From Flectobacillus major DSM 103 (lineage in GTDB: Bacteria > Bacteroidota > Bacteroidia > Cytophagales > Spirosomataceae), in NCBI RefSeq assembly GCF_000427405.1, contig NZ_KE386491.1, positions 2,401,001 through 2,465,000 of the forward strand: a stretch of 64,000 nt of DNA, given 5' to 3'. The stretch's first letter is position 1. Every line of letters starts with the position of its first letter. A program made the position numbers and the translations under genes. Positions 33,031 to 44,748 of the stretch are shown one piece after another. Below the pieces are notes generated by a model. The model was not told where the DNA came from and did no database searches. It was given only the letters and a program-made list of their open reading frames with translations.

Positions 33031-33200
33031 ACATGAGTCATCCCAAATTTTGGGATAATTTGCAATAGAGACCTCTTGTTTGCATTTATTGGGATTCACG
33101 AGATAGACCATCGTGCTTTTTATCCAATAGGGGACAACTTATTATGGTTTCATGTTAAATTTCAGAATAACTCATTCACTAAATTTGAGATGACTCATGT
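33031..33200. mobile_element. MITE-like element, copy A (170 bp)
   Basis: The ends are inverted repeats of 20 bp with one mismatch: ACATGAGTCATCCCAAATTT at 33031-33050 and the complement of ACATGAGTCATCTCAAATTT at 33181-33200. No credible coding frame lies inside. Internal blocks (AATAGAGACCTCTTG, TTGGGATTCACGAGAT, and TTAAATTTCAG at 33154-33164) recur in copy B at 58623-58874. I could not define a target-site duplication. Confidence 0.65.
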
Positions 33201-33380: not shown

Positions 33381-33450
33381 TATACCTTCTATTTAATTTG
33401 TACAATAAAATCTTTAATTCTGAAAGATATTTAGTACAATTTAAAGGCTT

Positions 33451-33468
33451 GTAGGGGTAATGTTGGGG
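33451..33468 (+). promoter_or_regulatory. Distal operator candidate upstream of beta-glucan susC
   Basis: GTAGGGGTAATGTTGGGG carries two GGGG half-sites 11 bp apart (33454 and 33465) around TAATGT. It matches the element upstream of the GH5 gene closely, and its TAATGT lies 54 bp upstream of the TAATGT in the promoter-proximal site. Confidence 0.55.
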
Positions 33469-33501
33469 CAAAAAACCACCCATACATACTATTATGCAGG
33501 T

Positions 33502-33562
33502 TTTGTTGTAGTAATGTAGTAACAAAACATTGGACTATTTGAAGCAAAGCCCTCTACCTTTG
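33502..33562 (+). promoter_or_regulatory. Operator candidate plus -7 box of beta-glucan susC
   Basis: TTTGTTG at 33502-33508 is followed by GTAATGTAG at 33511-33519. The -7 box TACCTTTG (TAnnTTTG) starts at 33555, 53 bp after the start of the TTTGTTG. A clear -33 TTTG at the usual 19-bp spacing is missing, as expected for an activator-dependent promoter. The same layout recurs before the GH5 and GH16 genes. Confidence 0.6.
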
Positions 33563-33648
33563 CAACAGGTTAACCGAACAAACATTTATCCAAGAAAATG
33601 ATTGAAAGCCTCAATCATCTCACAATCCCTAATAAAAGCTTTTGCAAA

Positions 33649-36600
33649 ATGAACAGAAAAATTGTACTAATCTTTAGTATTTTACTGCTATGTAGTGTAT
33701 TCAACACACTAATGGCACAAACCCTTCGGGTAACAGGTAAAGTAACCTCCAAAACGAATGGCGAAGCCTTAGTAGGAGCAACAGTTGCTGTACTTGGAAC
33801 ATCAAAGGCAACCATCACAGACTCGCTTGGAAAGTACACCCTTAGCGTAACACCAGGAGCAATTATGGTTGTTAGTTACTTAGGGGCATCAGGCCAAAAC
33901 TACACCGTAAAAGCAGGAACAACAGTCGTAAATTTTCAATTAGAAGAAACCTCCAACAACCTCGACGAAGTAGTAGTAGTGGGTTATGGTGCTCAGAAAA
34001 AAAGCGTTGTAACAGGAGCTATTTCAAGCGTAAAAGCATCTGACCTCGAAACCATGCCCATCAACCGTGTAGAAGAAGCCCTACAAGGTAGAACCTCTGG
34101 CTTAACGATTGCCTCGAGCTCGGGACAGCCTGGCTCTGGGGCTACAGTGCGTGTTCGTGGTGTTACAACTCTCAATAACAACGACCCCCTATGGGTTGTC
34201 GATGGCGTAGTAGTTGACAACGGCGGGGTAGGCTATCTCAATCAGTCGGATATTGAGTCGATAGAAGTACTAAAAGATGCCGCTTCACAAGCGATTTATG
34301 GAGCTCGTGCTGCAGCTGGAGTAATTTTGGTAACTACCAAAAAAGGAAAAGCAGGTAGTATTCGTGTTAATTACAATGGCTTTTATGGCACATCTGCCCC
34401 TGCCAAAAAATTGAACCTCTTGAACGCAACCCAATATGCAACCATTCGCAACGAAGCTTCGGTAAATGCTGGCGGAGCAGCGGTATATCCTAATCCACAA
34501 GCTTTGGGACAAGGTACAGACTGGCAATCGTTGATTTTTAACAACAGTGCTCGTCGCCAAAATCATGAGTTAAGTATTAGTGGTGGCAACGACCGCTCTA
34601 CGTTTTACCTTTCGTTTGGTTACCTCGACCAAGAGGGTATTGTGGCTACAGAAATTTCAAAATATACCCGTGCCAACGTTCGCTTGAACAGTACCCACAA
34701 GCTATCGAAATGGATTACAGTAGGCCAAAATCTAGGATATGCCCATGATAAATCCATAGGTTTGGGTAATACCAATAGCGAATTTGGGGGGCCTTTGAGT
34801 TCGGCTATCAACCTCGATCCTATTACACCTGCTGTCGTAACTGACCCCGCTATTTATAACGCAGCACCTTATCGCAACACTGGAATTCGTAGAGATGCAC
34901 AGGGCTTCCCTTATGGTATTTCAACGGCTGTAGGACAAGAAATGATTAACCCACTGGCGTATATTCAAACACGTTTGGGCAATTATGGTTGGAGCGACAA
35001 TATTGTTGGTAATGCGTACTTAGAAGCCCAACCTATTATAGGCTTGAAGTTTCGCTCTACTGTAGGTACAAAAATTGCTTTCTATGGTAGCGAAAGCTTC
35101 ACTCCTATTTCTTGGCTCAACTCTTCTAATATTACTTCGCAAACCTCATACAACAGGTCGATGAACTCTCGTTATGACTGGAATATTGAAAATACGGTTT
35201 CTTATGCAAAAGATTTCCAAAAACATAACTTCAATTTGTTGCTTGGACAAGGAGCATATTCAGAAAACCGCACTTATTCAACCAGTGTGACATTCTATAA
35301 TATCCCTGCCGACAATTTTAATGATGCCTCACTCAACTTCAAAGTACCAAACGACCAACGTTCGTCTGATGCAGGAGAAGGCTCTTTACATACGGTTTCT
35401 TCGTTATTTGCTCGCTTAAATTATAACTATGATGAAAAGTATTTGGTACAAGGTCTGATTCGTAGAGATGGTTCTTCTCGCTTTGGAGCTAACCATAAAT
35501 ATGGTATTTTCCCTTCTATTTCTTTGGGCTGGGTTGCTTCTCGTGAAAACTTCTTTCCTGTCAACAACGTCGTAAACTTCTTGAAAGTAAGAGGTGGCTA
35601 TGGTGTTGTAGGAAACGATGCTATCGGTGACTTTGCGTTCCTTTCTACGGTAGGAAGCGGCCGCAATTATGCGATTGGTAATTCGGGAAGCTATATTATT
35701 GGTTATAGCCCCAATGCTCCTGCCAATCCCGATTTGAAATGGGAACAAACAAGCCAAACCAACATTGGTATAGATGCTACATTGTTCAACAACATGAGCG
35801 TAACCCTAGAATGGTTTAAAAAAGTAACCAAAGATATTTTGCAAAACCCTCGTATTCCGGGTTATGTAGGGGCTATTTCAAACCCTGCTGCCAATGTGGC
35901 GGATATTCAAAATACAGGTATTGAGCTGGAATTAGGTTATCGCAAAAAACTTGGCCAAGTCGACTTTTCAGTAAATGGTAACGTTTCGTATATCAAAAAC
36001 GAAGTTACCAACCTTGGTAATGGTATTGCTTATTTGTCGGGTGGGCAGTCGTTCCAAGCTAGTACTTATCCTATTACTAGAACTGCCGTTGGACAGGCGA
36101 TTAACTCGTTCTTTGGTTTCCAAACATTGGGTATTTTCCAAAACCAAGCCGAAATTGAAAACTATACAAAAGATGGCAAGAAAATTCAGCCAAATGCCAA
36201 ACCTGGCGATTTCAAATGGGCTGATACCGACAATGATGGTGTAATTACTGAAAAAGACCGTACTTTCTTAGGAACTCCTACACCAACGGTTTCTTATGGT
36301 TTTACGGTTAATTTGGCCTACAAAGGTTTCGACATGGTGTTGTTTGGACAAGGAGCGGCTGGTAACAAAATCTTCCAAGGACTTCGTCGTTTGGACATTG
36401 CCAACGCCAACTGGTCAACCAAAATCCTTGACCGCTGGACTGGCGAAGGTACATCTACGACCTACCCGAGGGTAGTCAATGGTGACCCTAACAAAAACTT
36501 TGGTAACCCTTCTAATTTCTATTTGGAAGATGGCAACTACTTCCGTATCAAAACCCTTCAGTTTGGTTATACATTACCCAAAAATGTATCGGATAAGTTA

Positions 36601-36762
36601 GGTTTACAGAAAGCTCGTATTTATGTAATGAGCCAAAACTTGTTGACATTCACCAAGTATACTGGCTACGACCCCGAAATCGGTGGTGGTGTAATGAGTA
36701 TCGACCGAGGTATTTATCCACAGGCTCGTTCGTTTATGCTTGGCTTAAATCTTGGATTTTAG
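33649..36762 (+). CDS. SusC/RagA family TonB-linked outer membrane transporter (beta-glucan PUL)
   Basis: 1037 residues from the ATG at 33649, which opens the signal peptide (MNRKIVLIFSILLLCSVFN). The longer frame start at 33598 only adds a non-signal leader. Domains: CarboxypepD_reg-like (about 27-105, VTGKVTSKTNGEALVGATV), TonB box region DEVVVVGYGAQKK, plug (about 115-230, VRVRGVTTLNNNDPLWVVDG and AASQAIYGARAAAGVILV), and the barrel to the terminal MLGLNLGF. It should import oligosaccharides, here probably beta-1,3-linked glucan fragments judging by the linked GH16 and GH5 genes. susD lies 100 bp downstream. Confidence 0.95.
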   Translation: MNRKIVLIFSILLLCSVFNTLMAQTLRVTGKVTSKTNGEALVGATVAVLGTSKATITDSLGKYTLSVTPGAIMVVSYLGASGQNYTVKAGTTVVNFQLEETSNNLDEVVVVGYGAQKKSVVTGAISSVKASDLETMPINRVEEALQGRTSGLTIASSSGQPGSGATVRVRGVTTLNNNDPLWVVDGVVVDNGGVGYLNQSDIESIEVLKDAASQAIYGARAAAGVILVTTKKGKAGSIRVNYNGFYGTSAPAKKLNLLNATQYATIRNEASVNAGGAAVYPNPQALGQGTDWQSLIFNNSARRQNHELSISGGNDRSTFYLSFGYLDQEGIVATEISKYTRANVRLNSTHKLSKWITVGQNLGYAHDKSIGLGNTNSEFGGPLSSAINLDPITPAVVTDPAIYNAAPYRNTGIRRDAQGFPYGISTAVGQEMINPLAYIQTRLGNYGWSDNIVGNAYLEAQPIIGLKFRSTVGTKIAFYGSESFTPISWLNSSNITSQTSYNRSMNSRYDWNIENTVSYAKDFQKHNFNLLLGQGAYSENRTYSTSVTFYNIPADNFNDASLNFKVPNDQRSSDAGEGSLHTVSSLFARLNYNYDEKYLVQGLIRRDGSSRFGANHKYGIFPSISLGWVASRENFFPVNNVVNFLKVRGGYGVVGNDAIGDFAFLSTVGSGRNYAIGNSGSYIIGYSPNAPANPDLKWEQTSQTNIGIDATLFNNMSVTLEWFKKVTKDILQNPRIPGYVGAISNPAANVADIQNTGIELELGYRKKLGQVDFSVNGNVSYIKNEVTNLGNGIAYLSGGQSFQASTYPITRTAVGQAINSFFGFQTLGIFQNQAEIENYTKDGKKIQPNAKPGDFKWADTDNDGVITEKDRTFLGTPTPTVSYGFTVNLAYKGFDMVLFGQGAAGNKIFQGLRRLDIANANWSTKILDRWTGEGTSTTYPRVVNGDPNKNFGNPSNFYLEDGNYFRIKTLQFGYTLPKNVSDKLGLQKARIYVMSQNLLTFTKYTGYDPEIGGGVMSIDRGIYPQARSFMLGLNLGF

Positions 36763-36783
36763 GTAATAAAAAAACATACCTTC

Positions 36784-36810
36784 CCCCTAAATACCCGATG
36801 GTTTTAGGGG
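36784..36810 (+). terminator. Attenuator-like hairpin between susC and susD
   Basis: CCCCTAAA at 36784-36791 pairs with TTTAGGGG at 36803-36810 (8 bp, 11-nt loop). No strong T tract follows. Its position in the 100-bp susC-susD gap suggests a role in setting the relative mRNA amounts, as weak hairpins do in some operons. Confidence 0.4.
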
Positions 36811-36862
36811 CAATACCAACAAGAACTTTTGTTCATATTTCAAACAAAATATTATTTTAGCA

Positions 36863-38398
36863 ATGACCATCAATTATAAAAAATACCTTGCAGGCTTGGC
36901 AATTGGCGTACAATTACTAAGCTCATGTACTACCGAATTCTTGGAAGTAAGCCCAAGAGGCACTAACCTCGAAGCCAACTATTACCGCAACCAAACTGAG
37001 GCATTCAACGGCCTAGTGGCTGTTTATGACGTAGTAGGCTGGCAAGGTGGGGGTTTTGTTACCAAAATAGGAGCTTTAAATGCCGCCTCCGACGACCACT
37101 ACGCTGGCGGTGGTGGCCCCAATGATATTTCTGATTTTCAGGTTTTTTCTAACTACACCCTTACCCCCGACAGAGGGCCACAGGGCGAATTATGGAGAAA
37201 AGGCTTTTCGGGCGTATTCCGTGCCAATGTGATTCTTCAAAAACTGCCAGGTGTACCTATGGACGAAGCCTTGAAAAAAAGATATATCGCCGAGGGTAAA
37301 TTCTTACGTGCCTATTTCTATTTCGACTTGGTGCGTCTTTTCAAAAACGTTCCTTTGTTTGTAACACCTGTGGCTACATCAGAAATGTACAACGTTTTGC
37401 AGGCCAACCCTACCGAGGTATATGCTCAGATTGAAAAAGATTTGAAAGAATCTTTGGCAGACTTGCCAAGTACCGTACCTGCTAGTACCGAGGGCGGCCG
37501 TGCCACTCAAGGAGCAGCCCGTGCTTTATTGGGAAAGGTATATTTGCAACAAGAAAAATTTGCTGAAGCAGCCCAAGAGCTAGCCGCCGTCAATGGTACT
37601 CCAGGTGGTACAAGTCAGTATGGCTACAAGCTTTTGAGCAATTTCGGAGAGTTATGGAATGTAAAAAATAAATATAACTCAGAATCTATTTTTGAAATTG
37701 CTTATACCAATACTTCTGCTGGTAACTGGGACTGCGTAGCCTGTACTGAAGGTAATGTTTTGAATATTATGGTTGGCCCTCGTGGATACCGTGCCAATAC
37801 TGCCGATGCTCCTGATTACGTTTCGGGCTGGAGTTTCTTGCCTGTTACCCCTGATTTGTTCAATGCTATTCATTTTGACCCACGTTATAAAGCAACTATC
37901 GCTAATTTGGATAGCTTAGAAAAAAATGGTATTGCTAGCTACGAAAAAGGGTATATGAATACAGGCTATTTCTTAGAAAAATTTGCAGGAAGAAATTCAA
38001 ATAAATGGACTGGTGCTGGAAATATGGAATTGAATTTTCCACAAAATATGTACGACATCCGTTTGGCTGATACTTATTTGCTCGAAGCCGAGGCGTTGGT
38101 TCGTAGCAATGGCGATTTACAACGTGCGGCAGCTCTTATCAATGCTGTTCGTGACCGTGCTTACAAAGACAACAAACATCATGTAGCAGCTACTTTCGAC
38201 AATATTATCCTAGAAAGAAGACTCGAATTGGCTGGTGAAGGACATCGTTGGCTCGACCTTGTTCGTTGGAAAAAAGCAGGAACAATTTTGGCTTCAAGAG
38301 GTTTTAAAACAGGTCAACACGAAATATTGCCTATTCCTTTGTTAGAAATGGAAAATACCAAAATCCAACAAAGTAAAGAATGGGGTGGCACAAAATAA
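36863..38398 (+). CDS. SusD/RagB family surface glycan-binding lipoprotein (beta-glucan PUL)
   Basis: 511 residues. The lipoprotein signal ends LLSSC (Cys22). The SusD fold is seen in FLEVSPRGTNLEANYYRNQT, the TPR-like KRYIAEGKFLRAYFYFDLVR, and the C-terminal ERRLELAGEGHRWLDLVRWK with a final EILPIPLLEMENTKIQQ. It pairs with the upstream SusC and captures glycan at the surface. Two inverted repeats follow the gene before GH16, so GH16 probably has its own promoter. Confidence 0.95.
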   Translation: MTINYKKYLAGLAIGVQLLSSCTTEFLEVSPRGTNLEANYYRNQTEAFNGLVAVYDVVGWQGGGFVTKIGALNAASDDHYAGGGGPNDISDFQVFSNYTLTPDRGPQGELWRKGFSGVFRANVILQKLPGVPMDEALKKRYIAEGKFLRAYFYFDLVRLFKNVPLFVTPVATSEMYNVLQANPTEVYAQIEKDLKESLADLPSTVPASTEGGRATQGAARALLGKVYLQQEKFAEAAQELAAVNGTPGGTSQYGYKLLSNFGELWNVKNKYNSESIFEIAYTNTSAGNWDCVACTEGNVLNIMVGPRGYRANTADAPDYVSGWSFLPVTPDLFNAIHFDPRYKATIANLDSLEKNGIASYEKGYMNTGYFLEKFAGRNSNKWTGAGNMELNFPQNMYDIRLADTYLLEAEALVRSNGDLQRAAALINAVRDRAYKDNKHHVAATFDNIILERRLELAGEGHRWLDLVRWKKAGTILASRGFKTGQHEILPIPLLEMENTKIQQSKEWGGTK

Positions 38399-38412
38399 TA
38401 AGCACATGGAGG

Positions 38413-38493
38413 GAGTACCAAATTATAAGTCAAAACTAAGCAACTGATAATCAATCTTAAAGTTCAAAAAGCAACACTTACTATTTGGTACTC
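38413..38493. repeat. 11-bp inverted repeat after susD
   Basis: GAGTACCAAAT at 38413-38423 and its exact complement ATTTGGTACTC at 38483-38493, with a 59-nt loop. It may be part of the susCD 3' end; no T tract follows directly. Confidence 0.45.
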
Positions 38494-38551
38494 TTATTCA
38501 ATAGTCTACTTTTCTGTTAAGCTGAAATACGGCTAAACAGTGTCTATCTTC

Positions 38552-38595
38552 AACTGGTATTTTCCCAAGCATAGCCCTTTGAGGAAATACCAGTT
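38552..38595 (+). terminator. Probable terminator of the susCD operon
   Basis: AACTGGTATTT at 38552-38562 pairs with AAATACCAGTT at 38585-38595 (11 bp, 22-nt loop). TGGTTTTATATC follows. It lies between susD and the GH16 gene. Confidence 0.55.
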
Positions 38596-38683
38596 TGGTT
38601 TTATATCTTATCAACAATACCTTCGTATAACTATACTTTTTCTTTATTTGTCAACATCATTTTAATTCTTTATATTTCCTGAT

Positions 38684-38743
38684 ATTGTTGTAGGTACTAA
38701 GTAGATTACTATTAAAGGCCTACAATCAGTTCCTTTAGGTTTA
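38684..38743 (+). promoter_or_regulatory. Operator candidate plus -7-like box of the GH16 gene
   Basis: ATTGTTG at 38684-38690, with GTAG at 38690-38693 and again at 38701-38704 (11 bp apart). A -7-like box TAGGTTTA (one mismatch to TAnnTTTG) starts at 38736, 52 bp after the start of ATTGTTG. The layout matches the susC and GH5 promoters within 1 bp. The weaker -7 lowers certainty. Confidence 0.5.
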
Positions 38744-38785
38744 TGTAATAATCTATCAAAATATTAACTCTTATTGATTTAGCTT

Positions 38786-39646
38786 ATGAAAAAAATACAT
38801 CAACTGGCTTTTTTATTGGTATTGGGAAGTATTCTTTCGTGTTCGGGACAAAGCAAAAAAACACCCACACCCGTTGTAGCCCCTCCATTAGTACCATTAG
38901 AAGACAAAAAGTGGTCGTTTGAAACATCGCCAGTATGGGCCGACGAATTTGATAATGAGGGTGCTCCTGACCCTAAAAAGTGGGATTATGATATTGGCGG
39001 CGGAGGCTGGGGCAATAACGAACTACAATATTATACCAACAGCACGGCCAACTCGAGTGTATCGAATGGCAAACTAACGATTTCGGCCAAAAAAGAGAGT
39101 ATGGGTGGTCGTGATTATACTTCGGCTCGTTTGGTAACTCGCAACAAAGGAGATTTTTTGTATGGTCGCTTTGAAATCAAGGCAAAACTACCCGCAGGCT
39201 TAGGCTCATGGCCTGCTATTTGGATGCTCCCTACCGACTGGGCGTATGGTGGCTGGCCAAATTCTGGCGAAATAGATATTATGGAACACGTTGGCTACGA
39301 CCCCAATGTAGTACATATTAGTACACACTCGCTGGCCTATTACTTTAAAATTAATACCCAAAAAACAGCCGTAAAAACCGTTCCGACAGCCATAACTGAT
39401 TTTCATAAATATCGTGTTGATTGGACACCCTATGCTATCAGAGGCTTTATTGATGACGAACAGATTTTTGAGTTTGTCAACGAAGGAAAGAGTTTTGCCG
39501 AATGGCCTTTCGACAAACGTTTTCACTTACTGCTCAATATTGCCGTTGGTGGCGACTGGGGCGGAGCAAAAGGACTCGACCCTACTATTTTCCCTGCCAA
39601 AATGGAAGTAGATTATGTGAGGGTTTATAAAATGATTGACAAATAG
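38786..39646 (+). CDS. GH16 endo-beta-glucanase lipoprotein (laminarinase-like)
   Basis: 286 residues. The lipoprotein signal MKKIHQLAFLLVLGSILSC is followed by a Thr/Pro linker and a GH16 jelly roll (about 45-285). The catalytic stretch GEIDIMEHVG has Glu162 (nucleophile), Asp164 and Glu167 (acid/base). Conserved flanks are WADEFDNEG, WGNNELQYYT, RFEIKAKLPAGLGSWPAIWM and LLNIAVGGDWGG. The pattern EIDIME with WGNNELQYYT is that of laminarinases (endo-beta-1,3-glucanases) rather than lichenases, agarases or carrageenases. As a lipoprotein it may act at the cell surface, feeding oligosaccharides to the adjacent SusCD. Confidence 0.92.
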   Translation: MKKIHQLAFLLVLGSILSCSGQSKKTPTPVVAPPLVPLEDKKWSFETSPVWADEFDNEGAPDPKKWDYDIGGGGWGNNELQYYTNSTANSSVSNGKLTISAKKESMGGRDYTSARLVTRNKGDFLYGRFEIKAKLPAGLGSWPAIWMLPTDWAYGGWPNSGEIDIMEHVGYDPNVVHISTHSLAYYFKINTQKTAVKTVPTAITDFHKYRVDWTPYAIRGFIDDEQIFEFVNEGKSFAEWPFDKRFHLLLNIAVGGDWGGAKGLDPTIFPAKMEVDYVRVYKMIDK

Positions 39647-39672
39647 CTTGTTTATCAGTAGTATCGATTATG

Positions 39673-39702
39673 AGTCGGTCGAAATTAGTTCTTCGACCGA
39701 CT
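39673..39702. terminator. Terminator between GH16 and the convergent regulator gene
   Basis: AGTCGGTCGAA at 39673-39683 pairs with TTCGACCGACT at 39692-39702 (11 bp). The loop reads ATTAGTTC, nearly identical to that of the terminator at 58727-58764. Confidence 0.65.
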
Positions 39703-39729
39703 TGTTTGATTATTCGGAATGACTTGGGT

Positions 39730-39758
39730 TTTCATGTTAAATTTCAGAATCACTCATA
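39730..39758. repeat. Fragment of the MITE-like repeat (copy C)
   Basis: TTTCATGTTAAATTTCAG plus AAT-CACTCAT repeats the inner right segment of copy A (33148-33176) with one difference. The terminal inverted repeats are not evident here, so this is a remnant or a separate short module. Confidence 0.5.
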
Positions 39759-39776
39759 TTTATTTTATCTAACTCC

Positions 39777-42683
39777 TTATTCCTTAATACTCAGGAAGTA
39801 ATTAAAGAAATTTACTTCGCTAGGCAACTGTAGTTTTTTGCGAAGACGATAACGGCTTACCTCTACACTCCTCGACGAAATATTCATTAATTGAGCTATT
39901 TCTTTGGTCGATAAATTCATCCGTAAATAAGCACAAAGCTTTAGTTCACTTGGACTTAGGTTCGGAAACTTTTCTTTGAGCAGTACCAAAAAATTACTAT
40001 GTACACTATCAAAATGTACCGAAAACTGGCTCCAGTCTTCGCCTAGTGTATTTTCATCATCAACTACCTTTATCATTTTCCGTAAATCTTCTTTCATTTC
40101 ATCAAGATTTTCGGTTTTGGCCATTCTTGACAAATCGTGTTTGAGTTTCGACAATAATTCGGCTTTTTGCACCAAGTGCATCGCCGACGATGCCAAATCA
40201 GCATTTTTATGAATAATTTCGGCTTCTAATTTTTCATTTCTAAGGCTAACTATTTCTTTTTCACTTTGTTCTAGTTCCAACTGATGTAAATACAACAAGC
40301 GTTTTTGTTCTTCTTGGTATTGAAGTTGTTGTTGAATAAACTTTTGTTGTTGCCACAAAAACAACCAATAGAACATACCCATCAACAGCAACGTATATAC
40401 CAAATATGCCCAAATGGTCAAATACCAAGGTGGCAAAATAACAAATGTATACATTGCTACTGGCGATTCTTTCCCAAAATTGTTACGAGCTTTTACCTTG
40501 AAAGTATAAGTGCCTGCTGGCAATTGTGAATATTCTTTACTGGTTTTTTTGGACCACCCCGACCACGTTTTATCAAATCCATCCAATAAGTAAGCATACT
40601 CAATGGTTTCTTGCTGATTGAATAATGTAGATGAAAACTCAAAGCCAAGCCCATTGAAGCTACTCGCTATACGAGGAATCTGCTGTTCTTGTTGCCCCAA
40701 CAAAGTATTTATTTCGGCCCAATATCCCCCAAAAAATAAGCTATCGGCTTTGCCCGTTGCTGCAACAGCACGGATATTCACATTCACATTGTTTTGCTGA
40801 AGCTTGTAGGCATTATAATTGATATGAAAAAAACCTCTTTCGCTACCTACCAATATATTCTGGGCATCGATCGGATTAATAGATTCAAAACCTGCTACCA
40901 TTTTATTGGTTAGCTCAGGCAAATAAATAATTTTGGGTTGTTTGCCCGATAAATCCAGTACGCCCAATTTGTTATTGGCAATAAACCAGATATTGCCTTG
41001 CGAATCTTCTTTTAGGTAATATACATTCAGCTTACCAAAATACTTTTTCAAATACACCGATTCTTCAAATTTGTCGGTACGGTCATTGTACTCAAACAAG
41101 CCTTTTTCAGATGCCACCACTACCCTATTTTTGATAGCATATACAAAACTGTTATTGAGTGAAAGCGTTAAACCTTGTTTTTCGGAATAGAGCTTTATAT
41201 CGGCATTAAAGCCTTCTTTTAGCGTAATTTTAAATACACCTTGATAGGGATGAGATGTCCAAATTACTTTTTCATTGTGATGGTCTAAGCAGATAAATCT
41301 CGATGAAATATGAAAATTAGGTACTTGCCCAGCAGGCACAAAAGTATTGTTTTGGTACTTAAAAAAGCTCAATCCATTATAATTACCTGCCACAATAAAG
41401 CTAGCAGGCATAATATTGCCTAAAGGCAAAAACGACCAATAGCCATTATCTAGCAACTTGGTAGCTTGGTTGGGATTTACAACAAAAGCCCCTTCGTGAT
41501 GCCCCATAAGGAGTTTCCCATTGATTTCGTTTAAGCCCCACACTTGCCCCGTAGAATTGGGTACTGCACTAAAATGGGCTTTTACGTAGCTCAAATCGGT
41601 AAACTGACCTAGCGGTGCTACAAAAAGGCCATTGGATGTACCCAAATACAGCTTGTTTTGGTAAATGGCACTGGCATAACCCGCACCTTCATTGTCTATT
41701 TTGGGATAAATATTTTTGATAGCATTGTTGGTAGCTACAAAGGCAATTCCGTTGTCGAGACCAAGCCATAGGTTTTGGTGGTTATCAATAAAATTACTTA
41801 GGACATTATTATTGATAAGTCCTTCGTCTTTAGAATAATGCTGAATAAATTCGCCTTTTTTATTGATAATAAAACATCCATTCAAACTGGTAGAAAGGGC
41901 TATTCTGTCGTGGCTAACCCTTGTGGCGTTGTAGATTCTGTACTTAGCTACTTTTTTCATAAAATCGGTAGACAAAGCCATTGTTTGATTACCCCGAAGC
42001 CAGTAAGCCCCGTGTTCGAGGGTTACTACCAAAGCACTGTCTTTATTGACAGGTATAAGGGCCGTAATGAGGCTTTTTTTAGAAAAATCATCGGTTTTCA
42101 AAAATGTTTCCCAACGTCCTTGATTAAATTTCAACAAACCTTTTTCAAAATCTTGTGCTAATAAATACTGCTCGGTAGCCCCCATAAATCGCCAATGTGA
42201 TTGAGGCCTGTAGATGGACACTTTGTTGTCTCGATACTGAAAAATTTTATTACTAGCTCTAAAAAATACACTTTTTTGATACCCACAAACATTCCAAATA
42301 TCAGAAAAGGAATGTTCTTTTTCTGATACTAAATTTTTGAGAGAAACAAACGACAAATCGCCCGAAGCATTGGGCTTGTAGTACCCAAATTCGTTTTCGC
42401 CTCCAGCATACAAGCGATTGTCTGTCCCAAATTCGAGCGAACGCACTTTGGTTTTGTTGGGTAAAGCATACCTTCGCCAAAACGAACCATCAAATGTCAA
42501 TAACCCCTCGTTATTAGCAAAATACATAATTCCTTTTTTGTCTTGACGGATACTCCAGCTTTGTGTTCCTGCTTGGTATTGTTGTTTGGTATAGTTATGA
42601 ATATAGGGAAGACCAATCGTATTTTGGGCTTTTACAAGCTCAACTCCTCCAATAATAAGTAATACAAGAATAAGATGTTTCAT
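39777..42683 (-). CDS. Membrane-bound reg_prop/Y_Y_Y/LuxR-type transcriptional regulator
   Basis: 968 residues from the ATG at 42683, which begins a signal (MKHLILVLLIIGGVELVKAQ). The periplasmic part (about 25-650) has propeller repeats of the reg_prop type (WSIRQDKKGIMYFANNEGLL, then LWLGLDNGIAF). A Y_Y_Y domain follows (about 665-745, YAYLLDGFDKTWSGWS and LPAGTYTFKVKARNNFGKES). A single TM helix lies near residue 750-775, then a cytoplasmic coiled coil and a LuxR-type HTH (about 910-965, LSPSELKLCAYLRMNLSTKE and ISSRSVEVSRYRLRKKL). There is no kinase or receiver domain, so sensing and DNA binding sit in one membrane protein. It is divergent from GH5 and convergent with GH16, and is probably the activator of this PUL. 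Confidence 0.9.
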   Translation of the reverse strand: MKHLILVLLIIGGVELVKAQNTIGLPYIHNYTKQQYQAGTQSWSIRQDKKGIMYFANNEGLLTFDGSFWRRYALPNKTKVRSLEFGTDNRLYAGGENEFGYYKPNASGDLSFVSLKNLVSEKEHSFSDIWNVCGYQKSVFFRASNKIFQYRDNKVSIYRPQSHWRFMGATEQYLLAQDFEKGLLKFNQGRWETFLKTDDFSKKSLITALIPVNKDSALVVTLEHGAYWLRGNQTMALSTDFMKKVAKYRIYNATRVSHDRIALSTSLNGCFIINKKGEFIQHYSKDEGLINNNVLSNFIDNHQNLWLGLDNGIAFVATNNAIKNIYPKIDNEGAGYASAIYQNKLYLGTSNGLFVAPLGQFTDLSYVKAHFSAVPNSTGQVWGLNEINGKLLMGHHEGAFVVNPNQATKLLDNGYWSFLPLGNIMPASFIVAGNYNGLSFFKYQNNTFVPAGQVPNFHISSRFICLDHHNEKVIWTSHPYQGVFKITLKEGFNADIKLYSEKQGLTLSLNNSFVYAIKNRVVVASEKGLFEYNDRTDKFEESVYLKKYFGKLNVYYLKEDSQGNIWFIANNKLGVLDLSGKQPKIIYLPELTNKMVAGFESINPIDAQNILVGSERGFFHINYNAYKLQQNNVNVNIRAVAATGKADSLFFGGYWAEINTLLGQQEQQIPRIASSFNGLGFEFSSTLFNQQETIEYAYLLDGFDKTWSGWSKKTSKEYSQLPAGTYTFKVKARNNFGKESPVAMYTFVILPPWYLTIWAYLVYTLLLMGMFYWLFLWQQQKFIQQQLQYQEEQKRLLYLHQLELEQSEKEIVSLRNEKLEAEIIHKNADLASSAMHLVQKAELLSKLKHDLSRMAKTENLDEMKEDLRKMIKVVDDENTLGEDWSQFSVHFDSVHSNFLVLLKEKFPNLSPSELKLCAYLRMNLSTKEIAQLMNISSRSVEVSRYRLRKKLQLPSEVNFFNYFLSIKE

Positions 42684-42770
42684 AGAATTTAGGGTATCCA
42701 AATCAAGCAAAAACTAGTAGAATTATCGATTAATATGATTTTTATACTGATTTTTCTTCTTTTTAAACAG

Positions 42771-42831
42771 TTTGTTGGGGTAATGTAGGGGTTACTTTTT
42801 ACCATTTCTCCGCAAGTTATTCCTACTTTTG
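42771..42831 (+). promoter_or_regulatory. Operator candidate plus -7 box of the GH5 gene
   Basis: TTTGTTG at 42771-42777 is followed by GGGG, TAATGTA and GGGG (half-sites at 42777 and 42788, 11 bp apart). The -7 box TACTTTTG starts at 42824, exactly 53 bp from the start of TTTGTTG, as before susC. The site also lies 88 bp upstream of the regulator gene on the other strand, so autoregulation is possible. Confidence 0.62.
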
Positions 42832-42993: not shown

Positions 42994-44748
42994 GTGAAAA
43001 AAATTATTGGTTTAATAAATGCCCTCATCTGCGGTGTACTAATAACCTTTATGGCACAAGCCCAAGGTTTTTTGAAAGCACAGGGCAAAATTATAGTTAA
43101 CGAAAAAGGCGAAAAGATTATTCTGCGAGGAATGGGCTTGGGTGGGTGGATGCTGCAAGAAGGATATATGTTTAAGCTGAGTAATATTGGACAGCAATAT
43201 CGAATAAAAGACAAAATTGAAGCCCTTGTTGGCCCCCAAAAAACAGAAGCGTTTTACCAACAATGGTTACTAAATCATACTCGTAAAATAGACATCGACT
43301 CGATGGCCGCTTGGGGATTTAATTCGGTAAGATTGCCTATGCACTACAATTTGTACACGCTACCTATCGAACAAGAACCCGTGGCTGGACAAAATACATG
43401 GCTCGACAAAGGTTTTGCTATGACCGACAGCCTTTTGGCTTGGTGCAAGGCAAACAAAATGTATTTGATATTAGACCTACACGCCGCCCCAGGTGGACAA
43501 GGAAACGATTTGCCTATTGCCGACCGTGACCCTGCCAAACCTTCGCTGTGGGAAAGCCAAGCTAATCAAGAAAAAACCATTGCTCTTTGGCGAAAACTCG
43601 CAGAACGCTATGCCAATGAACCGTGGGTGGCAGGCTACGATATTATCAATGAACCCAATTGGGGTTTTGAGAATCCGACAAAAGACTTTAGAGGCACTGA
43701 AGAAAATAAAAACGAGCCGCTACGTAAACTTATGGTGGCAATTACAAGGGCAATTCGAGAGGTAGACCAACAGCATATTATCATTATTGAAGGTAATGGC
43801 TTTGGAAATAACTATCGTGGAATTATGCCTCCTTGGGACAACAACATGGTTCTGAGCTTTCATAAATACGGCAATTTTAATACCCTCGATGCTATTAAAG
43901 GTTTTTTGGCAATCCAAGACCAATATAATGTACCTCTGTGGCTAGGCGAATCAGGAGAAAATTCAAATAATTGGTTTACTGAGGCAATCGCTTTGGTAGA
44001 AAACAAAAATATTGGCTGGGCTTGGTGGCAACTCAAAAAAATGGGTATCAATAATCCACTTGAAATCAAAATAATGCCTTCTTACCAAAAATTACTCGAC
44101 TTTTGGAATGAAAAAGCTCCTCAACCAACAAGCCAAGAAACTCAACAAGCCTTGGATGAATTAATTGAGTTGCTAAAACTAGAAAACAATATTTACCACA
44201 AAGATGTGATTGATGCGATGTTTCGTCAGGTGACAGAAAAGAAAGCAAAACCTTTTAAAAACCACTTCATCCAACAACCTAGTACGGTTATAGATGCCAT
44301 TGATTTTGATTTGGGCGGACAACGGATTGGGTACTATGACAAGGATACAGCCAGTTATCAATATACTCCAGGGGTTAATACCCAAGGTAACAGAGGCCGT
44401 GCTTATCGCAACGATGGTGTAGATATTCAATATAACAAAGCGTCCAATCGTTACCATGTATTTTCTATAGAAACCGATGAATGGCTCAATTACACTGTCA
44501 ATGTTGCCAAAGCTGGCAATTATCAAATCAGTGTTGAGGTAGCATCCGAAAAAACGGAGGGAGCTATTGAGCTAAGCCTTGACGGAAAACCTTTGCCTTC
44601 GTGGCTCGGCACTCCTGCTACAGGTAGTGACGACACTTGGCAAAAGGTTTCCTTCGGCAAGGTTAAACTAAAAAAGGGTTTACAGCAAATCCGTATCAAA
44701 GCGGCCAAAGGCGGTTTTTTACTACGTACTATCCAATTCAATATATAA
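42994..44748 (+). CDS. GH5 endoglucanase with C-terminal CBM6-like domain
   Basis: 584 residues, starting with GTG at 42994 (KKIIGLINALICGVLITFMA signal peptide). GH5 TIM barrel at about 28-370: the early ILRGMGLGGWML, FNSVRLPMHYN and LDLHAAPGGQGND, the acid/base Glu220 in IINEPNWG, and the nucleophile Glu319 in WLGESGEN. After a helical linker, a CBM6-like jelly roll (about 425-584) carries TDEWLNYTVNVAKAGNYQIS. The barrel resembles secreted GH5 glucanases of the exo/endo beta-1,3- or 1,6-glucan group; exact specificity is inferred from the GH16 neighbour. It is driven by the operator-bearing promoter and ended by a strong terminator. Confidence 0.9.
   Translation: MKKIIGLINALICGVLITFMAQAQGFLKAQGKIIVNEKGEKIILRGMGLGGWMLQEGYMFKLSNIGQQYRIKDKIEALVGPQKTEAFYQQWLLNHTRKIDIDSMAAWGFNSVRLPMHYNLYTLPIEQEPVAGQNTWLDKGFAMTDSLLAWCKANKMYLILDLHAAPGGQGNDLPIADRDPAKPSLWESQANQEKTIALWRKLAERYANEPWVAGYDIINEPNWGFENPTKDFRGTEENKNEPLRKLMVAITRAIREVDQQHIIIIEGNGFGNNYRGIMPPWDNNMVLSFHKYGNFNTLDAIKGFLAIQDQYNVPLWLGESGENSNNWFTEAIALVENKNIGWAWWQLKKMGINNPLEIKIMPSYQKLLDFWNEKAPQPTSQETQQALDELIELLKLENNIYHKDVIDAMFRQVTEKKAKPFKNHFIQQPSTVIDAIDFDLGGQRIGYYDKDTASYQYTPGVNTQGNRGRAYRNDGVDIQYNKASNRYHVFSIETDEWLNYTVNVAKAGNYQISVEVASEKTEGAIELSLDGKPLPSWLGTPATGSDDTWQKVSFGKVKLKKGLQQIRIKAAKGGFLLRTIQFNI

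Follow-up and report, generated by a model that had tools for sequence, protein, structure and literature searches.

Bacteroidota feed on plant and algal polysaccharides by means of polysaccharide utilization loci (PULs), few of whose regulators have known DNA sites. A beta-glucan PUL of Flectobacillus major DSM 103 raises the question of which of its promoters share an operator and which protein binds it. We analysed the 64,000 nucleotides at positions 2,401,001 to 2,465,000 of contig NZ_KE386491.1 (hereafter the window, numbered from its first letter), where the PUL comprises susC, susD, a GH16 gene, a regulator gene on the minus strand and a GH5 gene with a CBM6 domain. An earlier note on this DNA had proposed one operator shared by the promoters of susC, GH16 and GH5. 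The element proved to be an 11-bp direct repeat, WTGTWGKRGTAATGTWGKRG, of which the window has three copies, starting at 33449, 33503 and 42772; each lies on the plus strand and is aimed at susC or GH5. Judged by sequence, there are two promoters and three operators. The motif is quite probably the operator of the PUL's own regulator, a putative transmembrane one-component protein encoded at 39777..42683, which would bind it and act as an activator.

An 11-bp direct repeat before susC and GH5

The distal susC operator (TTGTAGGGGTAATGTTGGGGC, 33449..33469), the proximal susC operator (TTGTTGTAGTAATGTAGTAAC, 33503..33523, 54 bp after the distal copy) and the GH5 operator (TTGTTGGGGTAATGTAGGGGT, 42772..42792) all match the 18-base core exactly, the proximal copy differing at one position from the 20-mer WTGTWGKRGTAATGTWGKRG. 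This core, TGTWGKRGTAATGTWGKR, occurs exactly three times in the 6,221,030 bases of the genome, precisely at these operators, and its reversed control does not occur there at all. Once up to three mismatches were allowed, the genome contained 270 matches to the pattern and 194 to its reversal, which places the signal in the exact matches. Two one-mismatch matches elsewhere in the genome (L077 and L078) look coding by eye.

We scored both strands of the window with a weight matrix built from other genomes only (50 sites, 21 unique, after exclusion of the chance hit L128 and of five loci repeating L054-L058). The GH5, proximal susC and distal susC operators ranked first to third at 30.8, 29.8 and 28.0 bits; the next site reached 10.4 bits. 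None of 300 shuffles of the susC and GH5 gaps attained the observed score. The boxes that the earlier note had placed at 33502 and 42771 and its further copy at 33451-33468 correspond to the three operators, and its half-sites in direct repeat 11 bp apart, one helical turn, were confirmed at them.

TAnnTTTG is the -7 box of the primary sigma factor in Bacteroidota (PMC7366714, in the part of the paper covered). Such a box is present in the window at both susC (TACCTTTG, 33555..33562, plus strand), where it lies 52 bp after the start of the proximal operator and 106 bp after that of the distal one, and GH5 (TACTTTTG, 42824..42831, plus strand), 52 bp after the operator start. The fixed spacing that the note had assigned to three promoters held for these two (53 bp from its box starts).

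The GH16 site itself (TTGTTGTAGGTACTAAGTAGA, 38685..38705, plus strand) was not supported as an operator. It is the best site in its gap, at -5.1 bits it ranks 91st in the window, and 52 of 300 gap shuffles scored equally well, so GH16 drops out as the third promoter. At the loci of four relatives (G002, G003, G008 and G023) we likewise found no operator match upstream of GH16, and we rejected this gene as a third target.

Operators and regulators across genomes

Two properties had been overlooked in the earlier note: the conserved pairing of the copies at 33449 and 33503, at a distance of 53-54 bp, and the recurrence of the operator geometry with paralogous regulators, of which the same genome encodes one. 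The pair recurs at that distance upstream of susC in G001, G002, G003, G008, G035, G023, Niastella vici (L048) and Longitalea arenae (L049), and in every aligned orthologous susC promoter the distal operator is accompanied by a site of the 33503 type. Across these promoters the operators stand out from differing flanks.

The exact pattern gave 38 matches in 20 of 222 genomes of the family, with 6 matches for the reversed control. Regulator orthologues of at least 57% identity were present in 19 of the 222 (the window's genome included), all of which have the motif; it occurred in just one of the other 203 genomes (G165, a single match with no -7 box). This contrast supports the product of 39777-42683 as the likely binder, as the earlier note had supposed. 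A TAnnTTTG box accompanied 37 of the 38 matches, at 50-51 bp from TGT for a single or proximal site or at 104-105 bp for a distal one. Searches for the regulator and for SusC scored the three best candidates per genome, and weaker copies can be missed.

Orthologues of SusC (57-100% identity) were found in 29 of the 222 genomes, 28 of which could be assessed; in the remaining one, G204, the contig holds only 96 bp upstream of susC. An operator pair lay upstream of susC in all 24 genomes keeping a regulator (19 strong, 5 drifted) and in none of the four without. Operators are exact in the 19 whose regulator is close. The five drifted cases (G023, G161, G201, G203 and G205) encode regulators of 41-43% identity and carry two diverged 11-bp repeats at a spacing of 54-55 bp, with best sites of 12.8 to 26.2 bits; in three of them an exact TAnnTTTG stands where it is expected. 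Their SusC proteins are 74-76% identical to that of the window, versus 75-76% in genus g32, whose operators are exact. Where no regulator exceeded 34% identity (G006, G013, G020 and G096), the 1500 bp upstream of susC held no operator, the best sites scoring -0.7 to -9.0 bits. By this comparison the operator is inherited with the regulator, not with susC, and the recurrence upstream of orthologous susC genes on which the earlier note had staked its motif is borne out.

Three of these susC promoters showed other features by eye. The sequence ahead of susC in G020 resembles an anti-sigma gene (FecR-like), which would mean a different type of control. In G096 and G013 (L275 and L276), where the regulators are 26-27% identical, CGTA/TGTA words about 11 bp apart take the place of the operator some 130-200 bp upstream of susC; they are perhaps a further variant.

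Paralogues of similar length, 27-34% identical to the window's regulator and including one elsewhere in the same genome (L066; regulator at 1803938-1806685 of contig C6), are associated with a sibling operator, TGATGTRGTAATGATG, that has the same -7 spacing. In the scan that gave this spacing, operators beginning TGATG were kept and no distance was assumed; 34 sibling operators were followed within 160 bp by 29 TAnnTTTG boxes, 26 of which start at 50 or 51 bp. We also scanned 30 of these promoters for upstream half-sites, excluding L160 and three rows of L061. There were 32 matches, at 32 bp (5), 42-44 bp (24), 53 bp (1), 64 bp (1) and 96 bp (1), where shuffles predict a total of about 14 (0.16 for each position), and the distances correspond mostly to three, four or five helical turns. 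The excluded L061 promoter agrees with this pattern in having two full sites 33 bp apart but disagrees in lacking TAnnTTTG at 50-51 bp.

A strict operator-plus-box expression matched 23 of 40 flanks of paralogous regulators. The composite TGATGTRGTWNTGATG-N(33-36)-TAnnTTTG, written after many family promoters had been seen, gave 47 matches in 46 of the 222 family genomes and two in 395 genomes of the class, one of these being the window's genome, which is counted in both sets; reversed controls gave none in either. A regulator of this type was located no more than about 1.5 kb from 46 of the 48 distinct matches (29 of 31 loci by tblastn, 16 by regulator-search coordinates, plus G237); the other two matches are directly upstream of susC. 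Twenty matches were new after the design, of which 18 adjoin a regulator and two stand directly before susC. The only match outside the family (G562) falls between susC and a regulator of 47% identity, and Niastella uses other operator letters, TGATGGGG. The few matches in the class sample imply that the exact composite form is mostly a family-level feature.

Two composite matches, in contig C13 of G183 (L245) and in G027 (L246), stand before susC and susD genes, and the 15-kb stretch examined contains no regulator of this type; control by a distant regulator is possible there. The regulator of G237 (L244, 4866-7674) aligns as three pieces in different frames and may be broken or misassembled.

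Proposed mechanism and rival explanations

The putative binder (39777..42683, minus strand) has Reg_prop and Y_Y_Y matches, which are typical of the sensors of hybrid two-component systems (HTCS), and its sensor matches the HTCS sensor structures 4a2l and 3v9f in the PDB. A hydrophobic stretch, seen by eye in the translation, separates the sensor from a helix-turn-helix (HTH) part at about residues 780-968 whose GerE match (30.5 bits versus a cut-off of 23.5) marks it as LuxR/NarL-type. No Pfam match to a histidine kinase, a receiver or an AraC-type HTH was found in the protein at E ≤ 0.001. The protein is best read as a one-component transmembrane activator. The AlphaFold model was poor (mean predicted local distance difference test score 56.3, from 4 sequences) and is in agreement only as to a long helix preceding the HTH.

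From this arrangement we infer the binding, the sign of regulation, the ligand and the polymerase contact as follows. The propeller/Y_Y_Y part would sense a beta-glucan fragment in the periplasm, and the signal would pass through the membrane helix and the long helix to the LuxR-type HTH domains, which would occupy two half-sites in head-to-tail order, with a period of 11 bp and thus on a single face of the double helix. Since the proximal operator, 52 bp above TAnnTTTG, lies just upstream of the usual place of the -33 box, the bound regulator could hold RNA polymerase in lieu of that box and so switch on susC-susD and GH5. Half-sites one turn apart and a rigid distance to a -7 box that mostly has no -33 partner fit a polymerase contact made from just above -33. 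At susC the second operator, 54 bp or five turns higher, would bind another dimer, and its being in phase suggests that this dimer sits on the same face. E. coli MalT and Streptomyces SARP-LAL proteins activate from asymmetric direct repeats close to promoters whose upstream box is weak, the latter with a repeat period of 11 bp; both differ from the window's regulator in being soluble, with unrelated sensors, and in belonging to other phyla and sigma factors.

Several observations weigh against this scheme or narrow it. The earlier note's remark that no good -33 box is present holds broadly (TTTG stands at -29 to -25 from the -7 box in 3 of the 33 unique promoters of this operator type), but the window's own susC promoter carries a -33-like TTGG 21 bp before its -7 box. 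A single operator stands before GH5 in the window and in G001-G003, so a second site is not always needed. Exact TAnnTTTG is missing from the drifted promoters of G201 and G205, and at the -7 position Niastella vici and Longitalea arenae instead show TACTTTAG or TAATTTAG. Of the 19 genomes with a close regulator, 14 come from genus g32, and independent events are therefore fewer than genomes. Finally, 17 of the 40 paralogue flanks failed the strict expression. In three of these (L173, L179 and L181) an operator is present but no exact -7 box follows it, two (L185 and L192) have the operator on the regulator's other flank, and L177 is an off-target stretch; the remaining 11, ten from g32, showed no operator in the flank examined. 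Because L067, also from g32, has its operator on the other flank, these 11 are weak evidence either way.

We considered whether the regulator might bind these operators but mainly repress, or switch between repression and activation. A protein bound close above a promoter could also block polymerase, but the proximal operator lies upstream of the -7 box, not over it, and the scarcity of TTTG boxes fits activator dependence, which makes repression unlikely. We give slightly less credence still to a different DNA-binding protein encoded elsewhere. It could account for the two composite matches in G183 and G027 that lack a nearby regulator, but it would leave unexplained why the motif follows the close regulator so consistently, why the operators diverge in step with the regulators where SusC identity is equal and why all other composite matches adjoin a regulator of this type.

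The rigid distance to the -7 box would also suit an extended promoter element of an alternative sigma factor. This is very improbable, given that the repeats start at least 50 bp higher than the -7 box, further up than a -33 region usually lies, that a second copy stands one pair-length higher, that paralogous regulators have their own letters and that the -7 box is of the primary sigma type (PMC7366714, same portion). Chance, or mere sequence relatedness without function, is hardly credible: orthologous promoters do share descent, but the operators differ from their flanks in degree of conservation, the shuffles never reached the susC or GH5 score, and the spacing recurs with paralogues of low identity.

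Taking the activator reading further, we think it somewhat more probable than its opposite that the geometry is the operator code of a whole class of Bacteroidota transmembrane activators with propeller, Y_Y_Y and LuxR-type HTH parts. In this code a full 11-bp direct repeat, TGnnGnnGTAA-TGnnGnnG, would stand at a fixed distance of about 50-53 bp above TAnnTTTG, and in most cases an accessory site, half or full and in phase with it, would lie three, four or five turns higher; membrane-tethered dimers would line one promoter face, with only the nn letters dictated by the recognition helix. If so, regulators and targets could be paired from sequence. Such a rule would allow regulon prediction in unstudied genomes, offer a direct test of transcription activation by a membrane-bound protein and suggest portable glycan-inducible promoters.

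Known regulators and neighbouring features

The closest precedents are two families of PUL regulators. SusR-like regulators of Bacteroides have predicted direct-repeat operators with sites 67 or 77 bp apart, whole helical turns, and activation of sus operons has been reported for SusR (Ravcheev et al. 2013, PMC3878776, in the text covered); its mechanism was still called undefined in 2019 (PMC6874557, in part). By these accounts the window's regulator resembles SusR in being a PUL regulator, probably in the membrane, whose operator consists of two direct-repeat sites at whole-turn spacing. It differs in that spacing, with sites 53-54 bp apart at susC and mostly 32-44 bp apart in paralogues, a comparison of distances that leaves the letters aside. 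HTCS have predicted direct-repeat operators with sites on average 21 bp apart (PMC3878776, same text). The likeness to HTCS lies in a related periplasmic propeller/Y_Y_Y sensor and in direct-repeat operators, the difference in the missing kinase, receiver and AraC HTH and in the 11 bp within a site.

The regulator belongs to neither family, because it misses NF058541 and is without the kinase, receiver and AraC parts. It gave no NF058541 match at E ≤ 0.01 and has no DUF6377, which, with the site spacing, led us to reject SusR membership; HTCS membership was rejected for want of Pfam matches to its three signature parts. As a reference we examined four SusE/F loci and recognised SusR in one, L211, where it matches NF058541 (TPR plus DUF6377) at 567.5 bits. 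Family models were run on a single open reading frame from L210 and one from L211; the L210 frame encodes a PAP2 protein. The susR/susB gap of L211 has one TGnnG repeat at 11 bp.

A protein survey lists Y_Y_Y in 7.7% of transmembrane transcription regulators (PMC10269533), in which, as would hold for the window's protein, a DNA-binding domain is carried by a membrane protein; the portion of that survey covered describes no operators for the Y_Y_Y type. The -33 motif, scarce in promoters of this operator type, is also reported as not found in Flavobacterium johnsoniae (PMC7366714, in part). A search of mainly the open literature, with supplements and RegPrecise outside its scope, found no operator for propeller/Y_Y_Y/LuxR regulators. 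On these sequence comparisons, the element appears to be a well-supported PUL operator variant on the direct-repeat theme of SusR and HTCS for which we found no description.

All genes predicted as targets lie on the plus strand. The susC product (33598..36762) has Plug and TonB-dependent receptor domains, and susD (36863..38398; SusD_RagB and SusD-like_3) is probably co-transcribed with it. The GH5 protein with CBM6 (42994..44748) has Cellulase and CBM_6 domains and exo-beta-1,3-glucanases among its PDB matches. The GH16 gene (38786..39646, plus strand), for which an operator of its own is not supported, encodes a laminarinase-like enzyme with a Glyco_hydro_16 domain and the laminarinase 3iln as its top PDB match; at L054 and L055 the gap before GH16 contains repeated copies of a palindrome like CTAGTCCGAGACTTAGTCTCGGACTAG. 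A 28-bp repeat, TTTCATGTTAAATTTCAGAATnACTCAT, flanks susC-susD-GH16 on both sides (33148-33175 and 39730-39757). Its 23-base core has 16 copies in the genome at up to two mismatches and none in the reversed control, and it is possibly a small dispersed repeat.

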